NCBI RefSeq assembly: GCF_024362485.1
Contig: NZ_CP101456.1
Location: forward strand, 2,728,001 to 2,792,000
DNA from: Natronobeatus ordinarius
Lineage (GTDB): Archaea; Halobacteriota; Halobacteria; Halobacteriales; Natrialbaceae
Direction of reading: 5' to 3'
DNA length: 64,000 nucleotides
The notes below the pieces were generated by a model, which worked only from the letters and a program-made list of their open reading frames with translations, had not been told where the DNA came from and did no database searches. Shown here one piece after another: positions 5,267-13,270 of this stretch. Both the position numbers and the translations under genes were made by a program. How positions within the stretch are numbered: the stretch's first letter is position 1; every line of letters starts with the position of its first letter.

Positions 5267-7342
5267 TTACTCGTCTTCGTCTTCGTCCTCGTCCTCGTCT
5301 TCGCCCGCCGAGAGCCCCTCGTTCGAATCGCGCTCGAGTGCGGGCGGGACGTCGCGGTACTCGGAGTAGCCGTCGAACCAGCGGACGATGCGCTCGAGTC
5401 GGTCGACGACGTGAGCCGGCTCCCCGGAGCGGGAGAGTTCGTGGCCCTCGCGCGGGTAGCGCACGAGGCGGGTGTCGACGCCGTACTTCTTGAGGCCGAG
5501 GTAGAACAGTTCGGCGGTGTTCGCCGGGGTGCGATAATCCTGATCGGAGTGGAGCACGAGCGTCGGGGTCGTAACGTCCGGGACGTGGGCGACGGGTGAG
5601 CGTTCCCAGAGGAACTCGGGTTCCTCCCACGGCAGGGTCCCGAAGTCCCCCTCGACCAGTTTGAACGCGTCGGTCGAGCCGTAGAAGCTCGTGAGATCGT
5701 AGACGCCGCGCTGGGAGACGGCGGCGCGGAAGCGATCGGTCTGGCCGACCGTCCAGGCGGTCATGAAGCCGCCGAAGCTCCCGCCGGTGACGTACTGTTC
5801 GTCCGCGTCGACGTACTCGCGTTCACAGACGCAGTCGACGCCGGCGAGCACGTCGGTCAGGGTCACGTCGCCCCAGTCGCGTTCGATCGCCGCGGCGTGG
5901 TCCTCGCCGTAGCCGGTCGATCCCCGCGGGTTGGACCAGAAGACGACGTAGTCGGAGGCGGCGAGCGTCTGGAACTCGTGCCACATCGTCCCGCTCGTGG
6001 TCCACTGGACGTGCGGGCCGCCGTGGATCTCGACGACGAGCGGATACTGCTCGTCGGGATCGAAGTCTGGCGGCGTCAGCACCCAGCCCTGGATCTCCTC
6101 GCCGTCGCTCTCGAACCACAGCGCCTCGGGCTGGGAGACCGCACGGTCGGTCAGGTACTCACGGTTGACCTGCGTCAGCCGCGTCGCCTCGTTCCCGCCA
6201 CGCGTCGAGACGAAGACGTCGCCGGGGTGGTCCCACTCGCTCTGGACGTAGGCGACGGCGTTCTCGCCGACCGAGAAGCCCTCGACGGTGACGCCGTCGC
6301 CGTACACCGGCTGTGGCTCCGCACTCGCGTCGCCCGGCACCGACCAGACCGCGACCGAGCCCGTGTCGGGGGTGGCGAAGTAGAGCACCTCCTCGTCGGG
6401 GCCCCACTCGAAGCCGACGGCCGCAGCGATCGTCCGGTCCAGGGGCTCCGTCGGCGTCGTCTCCTCGCCAGTCTCCCGGTCGTGGACGCGAAGCTCCGTC
6501 TGCCGGAGCGTGAACCGCTCTTCGGGCGTCCAGGTGTAGGCCACGCGACCGTCTTCGGTCGCCTCGAGTCCGGCCACCCAGCCGGTCGTCTCCGCGAACG
6601 CCTCGGCGTCGCCCGACTCGAGGTCGTGTGCGTAGAGCTCGTACCGGATCGAGTCGTCCGGGTGCACCTCGTCCTCGACGGCTTTCGCGGCGTAGTAGAC
6701 CGTTTCGTCGTCGCCCCACGCCGGCGCGACGGAGTCGTCGTCGCCGTCGGTGAGTCGCTCGAGTCCGTCCCCCCCCGCTGCGTCGCCCTCGAGGGCGGCT
6801 TCGACGTCGAGGACGTAGACGTGGCTGCGCCGGCCGTCGACGTACCGCTGGTGGGCGCGATAGATCAGCCGGTCGATCACCCGCGGGTCGGGTTCGTCGG
6901 GCTCGTAGTCGGGCGAGACGGCGAGGTCGCGTTCTTCTTCGCGATCCTCGGCGGTCGCCCGCTGAGTGAAGACGATGCGAGAGCCGTCGGGACTCCACTC
7001 GAGGCCGGAGACGCCGCCAGCGACCTGCGTGACCTGTCGGGCCTCGCCGCCGTCGGTCGGGAGGAGCCACAGCTGTGGCCGGTCGTCGTCCGCGCCGCGG
7101 GTGCTCACGAACGCGAGGTGTGAGCCGTCGGGGCTCCACCGCGGTTCGCTGTCGACGCCTTCGCTGACGGTGAACTGTTTCGGCTCGTCCCCACCGAAGG
7201 GGACGACGTACACCGTCGCCTCGTAGGATTCGTCGTCGTCGGGGACTTTCCGGACGAACGCGACGCGGTCGCCGTCGGGGGAGAGCTGTGGGTCTGCCAC
7301 CTGGACGATGTCGTGGTAGTCGGACGTGGCGATCGTCTGCAT
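5267..7342 (-). CDS. S9 family peptidase (prolyl oligopeptidase / acylaminoacyl-peptidase type)
   Basis: A 691-residue serine peptidase. The N-terminal half is a beta-propeller with repeated SPDG blades. The C-terminal alpha/beta hydrolase carries the nucleophile in GGSFGG (Ser about 522), the acid in SDQDYR (Asp about 602) and the base in REGHE (His about 634). Family members cleave short peptides or acylated N termini in the cytoplasm. There is no signal peptide. The protein ends in an alternating Asp-Glu run encoded by a GAC/GAG microsatellite at 5267-5300. The ATG at 7342 is preferred to the GTG at 7354. A short decayed copy of its propeller region lies at 8735-8798. Confidence 0.93.
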   Translation of the reverse strand: MQTIATSDYHDIVQVADPQLSPDGDRVAFVRKVPDDDESYEATVYVVPFGGDEPKQFTVSEGVDSEPRWSPDGSHLAFVSTRGADDDRPQLWLLPTDGGEARQVTQVAGGVSGLEWSPDGSRIVFTQRATAEDREEERDLAVSPDYEPDEPDPRVIDRLIYRAHQRYVDGRRSHVYVLDVEAALEGDAAGGDGLERLTDGDDDSVAPAWGDDETVYYAAKAVEDEVHPDDSIRYELYAHDLESGDAEAFAETTGWVAGLEATEDGRVAYTWTPEERFTLRQTELRVHDRETGEETTPTEPLDRTIAAAVGFEWGPDEEVLYFATPDTGSVAVWSVPGDASAEPQPVYGDGVTVEGFSVGENAVAYVQSEWDHPGDVFVSTRGGNEATRLTQVNREYLTDRAVSQPEALWFESDGEEIQGWVLTPPDFDPDEQYPLVVEIHGGPHVQWTTSGTMWHEFQTLAASDYVVFWSNPRGSTGYGEDHAAAIERDWGDVTLTDVLAGVDCVCEREYVDADEQYVTGGSFGGFMTAWTVGQTDRFRAAVSQRGVYDLTSFYGSTDAFKLVEGDFGTLPWEEPEFLWERSPVAHVPDVTTPTLVLHSDQDYRTPANTAELFYLGLKKYGVDTRLVRYPREGHELSRSGEPAHVVDRLERIVRWFDGYSEYRDVPPALERDSNEGLSAGEDEDEDEDEDE

Positions 7343-7505
7343 GACCGGCGTCACCCACGCTCGCGGGTTAGGTGTTTCGATTCGTAGGAGCCGGAATCGA
7401 ACCGTCGGCCGATACCGAAGACAGTCACCAGCGGCCGAAGTATACGATTGCGCGGTAAAATAGCGTGTAAGACAATCCTTCCACGGTGAAGTCGACGTCT
7501 AATTA

Positions 7506-7515
7506 AATGTTATTA
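7506..7515 (+). promoter_or_regulatory. TATA-like promoter of the first TAXI gene
   Basis: An AT-rich AATGTTATTA sits centred about 27 bases before the ATG at 7538, in otherwise GC-rich DNA, as in leaderless haloarchaeal transcripts. A matching element precedes the second TAXI gene. Confidence 0.6.
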
Positions 7516-7537
7516 CGACGAACCGGATGTCGAGGTT

Positions 7538-8617
7538 ATGGAACGAAACATCAAGCGCCGCAGGATTATCACGGCGGCCGGAGTTGTTGGCATCGCGACA
7601 ATTGCAGGGTGTGTCGGCGAAGAAGCGACCGACGACGACGGCGGCGGCGACGACGATGGTGACCAGGTCAACGGCGACGACGATGGCGAGGACAACGGTG
7701 ACGATACCGGCGACGACGACGAGATTACCGAAGACGAGTTCGAAGACGCCGAACCGGACGAGGACGGCGAGGTGATCGTCTGGCACGCCGGCGGTACCGG
7801 CGGGACGTACTTCCCGCTGTCGGGTGAGTTCAAGTCGATCGTCGAGGCGAACACACCACACGGCTTACAGGTCCAGTCGACCGGGGCGAGCGTCGCGAAC
7901 GTCGGCTCGCTCGAGCGCGAGGAGGCCGACTTCGCCCTGATCCAGAACGACATCGCGTACTTCGCGTACAACGGGACCGGCATCGAGGAGTTCGAGGACG
8001 CGGCGGTCGAGAACCTCCAGGGCGTCGCGACGCTGTACCCCGAGACGATCCACGTCATCACGCAGGCGGACTCTGGTATCGAGACCATCGAGGACCTCGA
8101 GGGCGCGACGATCAACACGGGCGACCTCGGCAGCGGCACGCAGGTCAACGCCCTCCAGATCCTCGAGTCGGCGGGGATCGACGACTTCGACGAGGAGAAC
8201 ACCGACTTCGCGACAGCGACCGACCAGATCCGCGACGGCGACATCGACGCCTCGTTCATCGTCGGCGGCGCGCCCGTCGGCGCGGTCGAGGAGCTCGCGA
8301 CGACCGAGGACATCGCCCTGGTCGAGGTCGCCGGCGACCTGCGAGAACAGATCAAAGCCGACGCCGAGTGGCTGGCCGACGACACCGTCGAAGGTGGCAC
8401 CTACGAGGGCGTCGACGACGACGTCGAGACGGTGTCGGTTCAGGCGATGATCGCGACCCACGAGGGCGTCGACGAGGGAATCGTCGAGGAGATCACCGAG
8501 GCGATCTTCGAGAACACCGGCGACCTCACGATCGAATCCGAGGCGATCTCGGCCGACACCGCCCAGGACGGGATGCCGATCGACCTGCATCCCGGTGCAG
8601 AGACGTACTTCGACTGA
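7538..8617 (+). CDS. TAXI family TRAP transporter substrate-binding lipoprotein (copy 1)
   Basis: A 359-residue exported binding protein. The N terminus has a twin-arginine-like KRRR, a hydrophobic stretch and a lipobox ending at Cys25 (IAGC), followed by a long Asp/Gly linker to about residue 66. The body (GGTGGTYFPLSGEF, STGASVANV, NTGDLGSGTQ) is the TAXI fold of TRAP substrate receptors. The ligand is unknown; relatives bind small carboxylates or amino acids. It lacks its own permease and is followed by a nearly identical copy (about 95 percent over the mature domain by eye). It may share the permease at 10538 or be a redundant receptor. Confidence 0.92.
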   Translation: MERNIKRRRIITAAGVVGIATIAGCVGEEATDDDGGGDDDGDQVNGDDDGEDNGDDTGDDDEITEDEFEDAEPDEDGEVIVWHAGGTGGTYFPLSGEFKSIVEANTPHGLQVQSTGASVANVGSLEREEADFALIQNDIAYFAYNGTGIEEFEDAAVENLQGVATLYPETIHVITQADSGIETIEDLEGATINTGDLGSGTQVNALQILESAGIDDFDEENTDFATATDQIRDGDIDASFIVGGAPVGAVEELATTEDIALVEVAGDLREQIKADAEWLADDTVEGGTYEGVDDDVETVSVQAMIATHEGVDEGIVEEITEAIFENTGDLTIESEAISADTAQDGMPIDLHPGAETYFD

Positions 8618-8734
8618 CGCAGCCGGCGTGTCCGGCAACAGGTCTGCCCCCGGTTCGAACTGAGCACGAGACGTTCAGCCCCGTGACTGGCAACTCCCAT
8701 CCGATATCGTTCACCACGCCCAGGCCCGCGAGAC

Positions 8735-8798
8735 CGGTGACGCCGCCAGCGACCTGCGTGAGCTGGTGGGTCTCGGCACCGTCGGTCGTACCCGATGG
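8735..8798 (-). pseudogene. Decayed fragment of an S9 peptidase gene
   Basis: About 52 bases from 8739 align without gaps to 7010-7061 inside the intact S9 gene, with a 23-base exact core (GACGCCGCCAGCGACCTGCG and three more bases). On the minus strand it reads TDGAETHQLTQVAGGVTGL against TDGGEARQVTQVAGGVSGL in the peptidase. It has no start or catalytic domain. It lies immediately upstream of TAXI copy 2, exactly as the intact peptidase lies upstream of copy 1, so it is probably the remnant of a duplicated peptidase-TAXI unit. Confidence 0.8.
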
Positions 8799-8857
8799 AC
8801 GACGGGCCGGGAATAGAATGCGAAAGGATCTCTTGCAGTGAACAGTACAGATGAGCA

Positions 8858-8864
8858 GATATTA
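8858..8864 (+). promoter_or_regulatory. TATA-like promoter of the second TAXI gene
   Basis: GATATTA lies about 29 bases before the ATG at 8890, matching the spacing and local sequence upstream of copy 1. This supports 8890 rather than the in-frame ATG at 8851 as the start. Confidence 0.55.
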
Positions 8865-8889
8865 CTACGTCGAACGCAGTAGTGGGTGC

Positions 8890-9921
8890 ATGGTGCAACA
8901 CATCAAGCGCCGCCGCTTCATCGCGGCGACAGGAGCTGCTGGACTGGCAACGATCGCGGGCTGTATCGGTGAAGACGCCGAGGACGATGACAGTGGCAAC
9001 GGCGACGAGAACGGCGACGACGACGAGCTCACCGAAGACGAGTTCGAAGACGCCGAACCGGACGAGGGCGGCGAAGTGATCGTCTGGCACGCCGGCGGCA
9101 CCGGCGGGACGTACTTCCCGCTGTCGGGTGAGTTCAAGTCGATCGTCGAGGCGAACTCACCCCACGGCCTGCAGGTCCAGTCGACCGGGGCGAGCGTCGC
9201 GAACGTCGGCTCGCTCGAGCGCGAGGAGGCCGACTTCGCCCTGATCCAGAACGACATCGCGTACTTCGCGTACAACGGAACCGGCATCGAGGAGTTCGAG
9301 GATGCGTCGGTCGAGAACCTCCGGGGCGTCGCGACGCTGTACCCGGAGACGATCCACATCATCACGCAGGCGGATTCGGGCATCGAGACGGTCGAGGACC
9401 TTGAGGGCGCGACGGTCAACACGGGCGACCTCGGCAGCGGCACGCAGGTCAACGCCCTCCAGATCCTCGAGTCGGCGGGGATCGAGGACTTCGACGAGGA
9501 GAACACCGACTTCGCGACGGCGACCGACCAGATCCGCGACGGTGACATCGACGCCTCGTTCATCGTCGGCGGCGCGCCCGTCGGCGCGGTCGAGGAGCTC
9601 GCGACGACGGAGGATATCTCCCTGGTCGAAGTCTCGGGCGACCTTCGAGAACAGATCAAAGCCGACGCCGAGTGGCTGGCCGACGACACCGTCGCGGGCG
9701 GTACCTACGAGGGCGTCGACGACGACGTCGAGACGGTGTCGGTCCAGGCGATGATCGCGACCCACGAGGGCGTCGACGAAGGGATCGTCGAGGAAGTGAC
9801 CGAGGCGATCTTCGAGAACACCGGCGACCTCACGATCGAGTCCGAGGCAATCTCGGCCGACTCCGCCCAGGACGGGATGCCGATCGACCTGCACCCGGGC
9901 GCAGCAGCGTACTTCGGCTGA
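8890..9921 (+). CDS. TAXI family TRAP transporter substrate-binding lipoprotein (copy 2)
   Basis: A 343-residue exported TAXI receptor. KRRRF opens the twin-arginine signal, the lipobox cysteine is Cys25 (TIAGC), and a shorter acidic linker than in copy 1 follows. The mature domain differs from copy 1 at only about 15 positions, mostly conservative. The ATG at 8890 aligns with the start of copy 1 and follows a TATA-like element; the ATG at 8851 would put 13 residues in front of the signal. Thirty bases after it begins the DUF1850 gene and then the permease, so this copy is the receptor encoded with the transporter. Confidence 0.93.
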   Translation: MVQHIKRRRFIAATGAAGLATIAGCIGEDAEDDDSGNGDENGDDDELTEDEFEDAEPDEGGEVIVWHAGGTGGTYFPLSGEFKSIVEANSPHGLQVQSTGASVANVGSLEREEADFALIQNDIAYFAYNGTGIEEFEDASVENLRGVATLYPETIHIITQADSGIETVEDLEGATVNTGDLGSGTQVNALQILESAGIEDFDEENTDFATATDQIRDGDIDASFIVGGAPVGAVEELATTEDISLVEVSGDLREQIKADAEWLADDTVAGGTYEGVDDDVETVSVQAMIATHEGVDEGIVEEVTEAIFENTGDLTIESEAISADSAQDGMPIDLHPGAAAYFG

Positions 9922-9950
9922 GTCGTTCACCCTATCGATAAGCTAGCACC

Positions 9951-10541
9951 GTGACCGACCACCACGACGGCACGCCGCCGAACACCACACGGCTCCGGCG
10001 ACGGACCATCGTCGCCGCGCTCGCTTCGCTCCCGCTCGGAGCCGGGGCGGTAGCCGTCGCCCGTTCGTCCGATCGGACCCTCGTCGTCGCCGACGCGGAC
10101 TCCGGGGACCGACTGCTCGAGCAGCCGGTCGACGACGGCGAAACCGTCGTGCTGGCGTACACCCACAGCGTCGAGAAGACCCCGGTTCGGGACGTCTACG
10201 AGGTCGACGACGACGCGCTCAGGATGGTGCGGATGGAATTTTCCTCGTTCGGTGCCGGGTTGCCGACAGACGACGTCGAACGGACCGACGAGGGCTTCGT
10301 CGTTCACCGTGACGACCGCTACGAGCAGCTGTCCGTCGCTCCCAGGACGATCGCGGGTCACGAACTCGTCGTCGGCGAGACCAGGTACGATCTGGTAGCG
10401 ATCGCCGACGATCGCGTCACGATTTCGATCGCATTCGATCGGTTCTTGAGTGCCGACCGTTTCGCACACGATATGAGCGTTCTCGACACGACAGACGGAC
10501 TCGCCAGCGACGTCGACAACGGGGTGAGTCGACGACCGTGA
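9951..10541 (+). CDS. DUF1850 domain protein, TRAP-TAXI associated
   Basis: A 196-residue protein with an N-terminal hydrophobic segment (about residues 20-40, after LRRRT) and a DUF1850 core: LAYTHSVEKTPVRDVYEV, MVRMEFSSFGAGLP. DUF1850 genes regularly sit between a TAXI receptor and a fused TRAP permease, as here; their biochemical role is unknown. It uses a GTG start at 9951, and its TGA overlaps the GTG of the permease gene (GTGA at 10538-10541), indicating translational coupling. The signal suggests it faces the outside of the membrane near the permease. Confidence 0.88.
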   Translation: MTDHHDGTPPNTTRLRRRTIVAALASLPLGAGAVAVARSSDRTLVVADADSGDRLLEQPVDDGETVVLAYTHSVEKTPVRDVYEVDDDALRMVRMEFSSFGAGLPTDDVERTDEGFVVHRDDRYEQLSVAPRTIAGHELVVGETRYDLVAIADDRVTISIAFDRFLSADRFAHDMSVLDTTDGLASDVDNGVSRRP

Positions 10542-13270
10542 GCGACGACGTGAACGAGCGAGGGAGACGAGTAACCGACCGGGCCGAACTCTCGGAGGAA
10601 GAACGCGACGAAATTATCTCCGAGGTCACCCGCCGTCGGTCGCTCCGCGGCGTGGCGCTGGTCGTGGTGGCGGTCGTGGGGATCACGTTCTCGGCGTTCC
10701 AGCTGTGGATCGCCGCGCGGGGGACGATATTCGAGGCGACGCTCCCGCTGTTCGGGGAGTTCCGGCTCTTCGCGCTGCAACAACTCCAGGTCAACACGGT
10801 CCACGTCACCTTCGCACTGGTCCTGGCGTTCCTGTTGTTCCCCACGAGCCGCGGGGACGGCTTCGTCGTCCGTCGGCTCGCCCGGGTCGAACCCGCCGTC
10901 CGCGCCCGCTTCGGGGACGATCACCCGCTGACGCGGGCGGTGGCCCGGCTCGCCGGATTGGTCCGCTGGGCGGCGCTCGATCCGCACATGAACCGGGTCG
11001 CGCCGGTCGACGTGGCGCTGATCGGCCTCGCGCTGCTCCCGATGCACTACACGGTGACGCAGTTCGAGGAGATCCAACACATCGCCTTTCGTCGGTTCGA
11101 CGACACCATCGGAGTCCACGAGATGTACCCGATCCTCACGCCGGTCGTCTCGGCGTTCGAGGCCGTCGGTGTCCCGCTGGGCGACGTCTCGTGGGCGTTC
11201 GTCCTCGGCGTCCTCGGCATCCTGCTCGTCCTCGAGGCGACCCGGCGTACCCTCGGGCTGCTGTTGATGACGCTGGTCGGCTCGTTCATCGTCTACGCGT
11301 ACTGGGGCTATCTCATCCCGCGCGATTCGGCGATCGGCGCGCTGGCAATCCAGCCCGACACCTGGGCGAACATCGTCTTCAACCTCTGGTACAACGTCGA
11401 AGCCGGCGTCTTCTCGACGCCCGTCAGCGTCAGCGTCCGCTTCATCTACATCTTCATCCTCTTCGGGGCGTTCCTCGAGATGAGCGGCGCGGGCAAGTGG
11501 TTCATCGACCTCGCGTACTCCGCGACCGGCACCCGGAAGGGTGGCCCGGCGAAAGCGAGCGTCGTCTCGAGCGGGTTCATGGGGATGCTCAGTGGTTCGT
11601 CGATCGCCAACACCGTCACGACGGGCGCGTTCACGATTCCGCTGATGAAGCGATCGGGCTACTCGCCCGAGTTCTCCGGCGCGGTCGAATCCTCCTCCTC
11701 GTCGGGAGGCCAGATGCTCCCGCCGGTGATGGGGGCGGCGGCGTTCCTGATCGTCGAGTTCACGGGCTGGCCCTACGCGGACGTGATCATCGCCGCGACG
11801 CTCCCCGCGATCGCATTCTTCTTCGGAATGTGGGTAATGGTGCACTTCGAGGCCGTCCGCGGCGGGATCGGCGGCCTCCCGCGCTCTGAACTTCCCGACG
11901 TTCGCTCGAAGCTCCGCACGGGCTGGTTCTACCTGATACCGATCGTCCTGCTGGTCTACTTCCTGGTGGTCGCACGCTTCTCGATCAACCGCGCCGGCTG
12001 GTTCACGATCGTCTCGGTCGTCGCCCTGATCGCGGTCGTCGCGGCCTACGACGAGCAGACGCGGCTCCCCTTGCTGGGGTCGATCGCGGCACTCTACCTC
12101 GCCCACCTCGGGGCGTTCGTGACTGTCGGCGGCGGTCTCCTCGACGCCATCGGAGTCCTGCTCGGGACGGGGACGCCCGGCGACGGGCTCACACTCGGCG
12201 AGGCGGCGACGGCGGCCGCCGCCGATCTCGGGACGATCGCCATCCTCGTGAGCGTCGCGTTTCTGCTCGCCCGACCCGGCGCCGAGGCGCCGCTGCTCGA
12301 GCTCGAGGACGATGTCGAGGACGCCGCACGCGAGAGTGCGCGGGCGATCGGTCGGCCGGGACTGGCGGACAACGTCGCCTACCGGCTCGGGACATTTGTC
12401 CTGAAGTCGATGGATTCGGGCGCGCGAACCGCGACGACCGTCGTGATCGCCGTCGCGGCGGCCGGCGTCGTGCCGGGCGTCATCAGCGTCACGGGACTGG
12501 GCCCGAACCTCGCCGCGCTGATCGACGCCGTCAGCGGCGGGTCGATGCTGACGCTCCTCGTGCTGACCGGCATCGCGTCGATCATCTTCGGGATGGGGAT
12601 GCCGACGACCGCGATGTACATCATCCTGGTCGCGATGCTCGGCGCCCCGATCGAGCAGACCGGCATCGCGATCCTCGCCGGCCACCTGTTCATCCTCTAC
12701 TTCGGCCTGATGGCGGACGTGACGCCGCCGGTTGCCGTGGCCGCGTTCGCCGGCGCCGGCGTGGCGAAAGCCGAGGAGATGAAAACCGCGATTATCGCCT
12801 TCCTGCTCTCGTTGAACAAGGTACTCGTTCCGTTCGCGTTCGTCTTCTCGCCCGGGATCATGTTCCTGCGCCGAGGTGACGAGGGCTGGCGGGTGATGGG
12901 GTGGGCCGACTTTGCCGACGTCGGCTTCGTCCTCACCGAGGTCGCGATCCCGGTCGTCGGGATGTTCCTCGGCGTCTACGCGCTCGGCGTGACGATCATC
13001 GGCTACCAGTTCTCGAGTGTCAGCCAGGTGCGACGCGCGCTCTACTCGATCGCCTCGATCCTGCTGATGGTGCCGGAGATCCCCCTGCTGCTGGCCGAGG
13101 CTGTGCTCGCCCTGCTCGGCATCCCCTCGGCGCTGTTGCTCTTCTCGATCACCTTCCCGCTCCGAGTCGTCGGGCTCGTCATGCTCGTCGTCCTCACTCA
13201 CGACAACCGTTCCAGATCGATCCGCGGGACTGGCGTCGAATCGACGGCGACGGCCCCGGGTGACGCCTGA
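10538..13270 (+). CDS. TRAP transporter fused permease subunit (4TM-12TM)
   Basis: A 910-residue polytopic membrane protein combining the small and large permease subunits of a TRAP transporter, as is usual in TAXI systems. The first part has about four membrane segments after a charged N terminus. The DctM-like part contains FGAFLEMSGAGKWFIDLA, SGSSIANTVTTGAFTIPLMK and GMGMPTTAMYIIL. Transport is probably driven by an ion gradient, since no ATPase is encoded. The GTG start at 10538 overlaps the DUF1850 stop. Together with copy 2 of the receptor and DUF1850 it forms a complete uptake operon; the substrate is not evident. Confidence 0.93.
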   Translation: MSDDVNERGRRVTDRAELSEEERDEIISEVTRRRSLRGVALVVVAVVGITFSAFQLWIAARGTIFEATLPLFGEFRLFALQQLQVNTVHVTFALVLAFLLFPTSRGDGFVVRRLARVEPAVRARFGDDHPLTRAVARLAGLVRWAALDPHMNRVAPVDVALIGLALLPMHYTVTQFEEIQHIAFRRFDDTIGVHEMYPILTPVVSAFEAVGVPLGDVSWAFVLGVLGILLVLEATRRTLGLLLMTLVGSFIVYAYWGYLIPRDSAIGALAIQPDTWANIVFNLWYNVEAGVFSTPVSVSVRFIYIFILFGAFLEMSGAGKWFIDLAYSATGTRKGGPAKASVVSSGFMGMLSGSSIANTVTTGAFTIPLMKRSGYSPEFSGAVESSSSSGGQMLPPVMGAAAFLIVEFTGWPYADVIIAATLPAIAFFFGMWVMVHFEAVRGGIGGLPRSELPDVRSKLRTGWFYLIPIVLLVYFLVVARFSINRAGWFTIVSVVALIAVVAAYDEQTRLPLLGSIAALYLAHLGAFVTVGGGLLDAIGVLLGTGTPGDGLTLGEAATAAAADLGTIAILVSVAFLLARPGAEAPLLELEDDVEDAARESARAIGRPGLADNVAYRLGTFVLKSMDSGARTATTVVIAVAAAGVVPGVISVTGLGPNLAALIDAVSGGSMLTLLVLTGIASIIFGMGMPTTAMYIILVAMLGAPIEQTGIAILAGHLFILYFGLMADVTPPVAVAAFAGAGVAKAEEMKTAIIAFLLSLNKVLVPFAFVFSPGIMFLRRGDEGWRVMGWADFADVGFVLTEVAIPVVGMFLGVYALGVTIIGYQFSSVSQVRRALYSIASILLMVPEIPLLLAEAVLALLGIPSALLLFSITFPLRVVGLVMLVVLTHDNRSRSIRGTGVESTATAPGDA

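Follow-up and report, generated by a model that had tools for sequence, protein, structure and literature searches.

The window, by which we mean the whole 64 kb stretch of DNA that was analysed, carries near one end a peptidase gene of the S9 family followed by a TAXI-TRAP transporter cluster in which the gene for the substrate-binding protein is present twice. The order is S9 (minus strand), a first TAXI gene (TAXI1), a relic of S9, a second TAXI gene (TAXI2), a DUF1850 gene and the gene for the TRAP membrane protein. An intact S9 gene on the minus strand just upstream of the first TAXI copy had been predicted, and it is indeed found there. The features are as follows.

5267-7354, minus strand: intact gene for an S9 peptidase of the prolyl oligopeptidase family, with PD40 propeller repeats (PF00326, E 6.6e-50, and PF07676); source of the relic
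7000-7059, minus strand: segment of the S9 gene that corresponds to the relic (52/60 identical to 8729-8788)
7438-7537, plus strand: region 5' of TAXI1, related to that of TAXI2 (start-codon-anchored alignment)
7538-8617, plus strand: TAXI1, TAXI-TRAP substrate-binding protein with lipoprotein signal and acidic linker (PF16868, NMT1_3, E 3e-65)
8729-8788, minus strand: S9 relic between TAXI1 and TAXI2, a fossil of the S9 5' part, 60 bases (local alignment)
8790-8889, plus strand: region 5' of TAXI2, related to that of TAXI1 (start-codon-anchored alignment)
8890-9921, plus strand: TAXI2 (PF16868, E 1e-66); start taken as the ATG at 8890, with a further in-frame ATG at 8851
9951-10541, plus strand: DUF1850 protein, a conserved neighbour between TAXI and the membrane component (PF08905, E 5e-22)
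10538-13270, plus strand: single large TRAP membrane protein with a DctM domain (PF06808, E 2e-75)

The TAXI copies match the PF16868 profile with 221 and 226 bits, against a cut-off of 27, and they match 1us4 with a phmmer E of 1e-49; PDB entries 1us4/1us5 are of TtGluBP, the glutamate-binding TAXI protein of Thermus thermophilus. Both genes are linked to the TRAP membrane component, and relatives keep that order; the haloarchaeal loci examined likewise have a DUF1850 gene in the interval from TAXI to TRAP. At the DNA level the two copies are 93.5% identical over the 947 bases that end at the stop codon, and 75% identical over 76 bases in the signal-peptide region; the binding domains share 95% protein identity.

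A fragment of the peptidase gene between the TAXI copies

The relic (8729-8788) is identical to S9 bases 7000-7059 at 52 of 60 positions, ungapped and on the same strand (blastn E 1.3e-15 in a search of the whole window), and it includes an exact core of 23 bases (7010-7032 = 8739-8761). Its position and strand are collinear with those of S9 upstream of TAXI1. The original prediction had described a 52-base ungapped match at 8739-8790; the match and its core stand, but the block extends 10 bases further at its start and stops 2 bases short of the proposed end. The translation of the relic stretch in the S9 frame is TTDGAETHQLTQVAGGVTGL against PTDGGEARQVTQVAGGVSGL. S9 similarity beyond the relic was found on neither flank, and a search of the genome with the S9 protein and the intergenic DNA gave no S9 fragment besides the relic. 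In an own-genome search the S9 gene has one full-length match and no other close copy.

A match of this kind could in principle reflect chance or a conserved motif, for example a PD40 repeat-coding stretch that arose independently, because the PD40 repeat occurs more than once in S9 and GC-rich codons make background matches more frequent. The Smith-Waterman score of the relic against S9 is, however, 80; the best of 500 first-order Markov shuffles scores 34, and the best of about 540 genuine 273-base segments of the window scores 39. A score about twice the best of all controls, together with the exact 23-base core and the collinear place, refutes chance similarity, to which we assign practically no probability; the expectation that the match would exceed chance is thus borne out.

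The S9 gene nearest to the relic is that of the same genome (52/60), followed by that of the relative G001 (50/60), and other relatives reach 40-47/60. When the eight differences between the relic and S9 are polarised with the G001 gene as outgroup, five fall on the relic side and three on the S9 side. Four of the five relic-side changes hit the first or second position of a codon, which is what loss of constraint would produce. The relic's 60 bases alone are not enough for a date.

The regions in front of the two TAXI genes are also related. When 7438-7537 and 8790-8889 are anchored at the start codon, only 4 of 5000 shuffles align as well, in agreement with the earlier remark that the promoter-proximal bases of the two genes are alike, and each of the two aligns less well with the regions that precede the genes of relatives. 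Because the alignment surpasses both shuffles and relatives, the copied DNA probably included some 80 bases in front of TAXI, which leaves about 23 bases unassigned between these and the relic.

Origin of the second TAXI gene

We compared the locus with 125 genomes of the family, in which the window genome is the sole representative of its genus. A TAXI orthologue is present in 73 of them, and in 42 of these 73 S9 lies divergently at most 2 kb upstream of TAXI; the relatives carry the same peptidase gene at this place and not an unrelated one, a point on which the original prediction could have failed. It had also called for single and double TAXI states to be looked for in relatives: a single TAXI is the rule (40 genomes have one that adjoins S9), and among the 73 genomes adjacent pairs occur only in the window genome and in G001. 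The nearest relatives in the TAXI tree, G118 and G138, were mapped directly: each has a single TAXI gene, and the order is S9-TAXI-DUF1850-TRAP. In 12 loci that have no S9 or have it away from TAXI, no S9 relic was found beside TAXI. Across 5267-13270 the nearest relatives differ by gene, S9 being nearest to G001 and TAXI, DUF1850 and TRAP to G118, and this mixture may reflect exchange between lineages.

In a tree of 84 rows the TAXI copies of the window are sisters with support 100/97, so the duplication happened in this lineage and is, on the evidence of the tree, lineage-specific. The two G001 copies are placed elsewhere in the same tree and are not sisters; judged from their sequences, they have a history separate from that of the window pair. 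A duplication common to both genomes was considered and rejected: the G001 copies group apart, and the G001 intergenic region has no detectable S9 relic. In G001 (L006 467-2565; G001:C1:71230-75292) two adjacent TAXI genes, 87% identical, stand before one TRAP gene and share an identical run of 110 bases, a length reached in 0 of 2000 permutations, which suggests gene conversion between them. The first of the two (L006 339-470) has neither a lipobox cysteine nor an acidic linker, and the same holds for the single TAXI of L009, L141 and L144; because these elements are missing, the first G001 TAXI may be released and not anchored.

It is quite improbable that TAXI2 was acquired from a different species, with part of the donor's S9 alongside. 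The TAXI-TRAP genes of the window are nearest to G118/G138 but its S9 is nearest to G001, and the S9 genes of several other genomes also outscore those of G118 and G138 against the window S9, so that the genes may have mixed histories. The two TAXI copies are nevertheless each other's closest relatives, and the relic is nearest to the S9 of its own genome and not to that of G118 (41/60).

Very probably, then, a piece of S9 and TAXI were duplicated head to tail, the S9 piece was then eroded and both TAXI genes were retained. In an ancestor of this species, a segment starting inside or beyond S9, with its far end at the TAXI stop codon or shortly past it, would have been copied, giving the order S9 - TAXI1 - S9 piece - TAXI2 - DUF1850 - TRAP. 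Point changes and deletions would then have worn the redundant S9 piece down to the roughly 60 bases that can still be recognised, and meanwhile both TAXI genes would have been retained under purifying selection. Head-to-tail order, a partial copy of the flanking gene and its later erosion are shared with tandem duplications in general that leave a truncated neighbour at the junction; there is no difference in principle, and the junction in the window is too eroded to read.

Where the copied segment began can be narrowed in part. It need only have started within S9, which would give a minimum of about 7000-8617, or 1.6 kb. The original prediction had a unit of S9 end and TAXI duplicated and the second S9 then eroded. 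The duplication holds, given the sister copies (100/97) and the relic; a complete second S9 copy is no more than possible, since the surviving 60 bases all belong to the S9 5' part, the one part that, on the alignment, is proven to have been copied. The 111 bases from the TAXI1 stop to the relic (8618-8728) match neither S9 nor the DNA downstream of TAXI2, and because they match nothing tested, the duplication junction is not seen. According to one version of the main explanation, to which we give an even chance, the start of the unit lay within S9 at around base 7000, and no more than the 5' part of the gene was ever duplicated; one internal deletion of about 375-400 bases would then be needed to produce the relic, and a second whole S9 would never have existed. 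This version is in keeping with the far side of the relic, which has no S9-like sequence (the alignment score of 8618-8728 against S9 equals the shuffle mean), but erosion of S9 would account for the 111 unmatched bases just as well.

As for age, the core of the two TAXI copies differs at 0.16 of synonymous and 0.024 of nonsynonymous sites (dS 0.18, dN 0.025). Since this synonymous divergence is about what separates two species of one genus elsewhere in the family, the duplication is not very recent; the distance between TAXI1 and TAXI2 is about two thirds of the distance to G118. Both genes look intact and conserved, and appear to be kept under purifying selection. In the signal peptides 0.53 of synonymous sites differ (9.5/17.8), well above the 0.16 of the core (Fisher p 0.0003). 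This contrast would fit TAXI copies older than they appear, homogenised through gene conversion from which the signal-peptide ends escaped, and conversion is evident between the adjacent copies of G001 with their long identical run. The signal peptides of single-copy orthologues, however, likewise diverge about twice as much as the cores at synonymous sites (mean 0.34 in pairs whose cores are about as divergent), and the longest identical stretch shared by TAXI1 and TAXI2 does not reach significance (p 0.08). For these two reasons gene conversion was kept only as a rival cause of the sharp drop in similarity; we consider it unlikely, and the signal-peptide contrast is at most suggestive of conversion in the TAXI core of the window pair.

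Two receptors and one permease

VcGluP of Vibrio cholerae is a TAXI-TRAP glutamate-binding protein (PMC11574862). The window copies belong to the same substrate-binding family as VcGluP and TtGluBP, and in an alignment read by eye the key Tyr (TYF), Gln (IQND) and Glu (LYPE) of these proteins are apparently kept in both copies, whereas the region of VcGluP Tyr200/Met201 differs (FIVGGAP). The window system departs from the two bacterial ones in that two adjacent binding proteins come ahead of a single permease, the anchor is of the archaeal lipoprotein type with an acidic linker, and the cluster includes a DUF1850 gene. In the literature on haloarchaeal TAXI-TRAP systems and on TRAP transporters with several binding proteins, we found nothing directly on this case.

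TAXI1 and TAXI2 are identical at the inferred key ligand positions (by eye), and the substitutions between their binding domains are mostly conservative. Because the copies are intact and conserved and agree at these positions, extra dosage or differential expression seems likelier than a new ligand. Most likely, as far as sequence can tell, two receptors for the same ligand would feed one TRAP permease and differ in the amount or timing of their expression.

The duplication is neat but ordinary gene evolution, and it leaves general understanding unchanged. It gives an oriented order of events, from S9 with a single TAXI, through copying, to loss of the redundant S9 piece, and it makes a small, well-supported haloarchaeal case of a binding-protein-dependent transporter acquiring two receptors. 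We propose tentatively, and with some doubt, that adjacent pairs of TAXI genes for one permease arose at least twice in the family (in the window genome and in G001), with recombination between the G001 copies; if both genes of a pair are expressed, such pairs could be a recurrent way of tuning uptake in haloarchaea.
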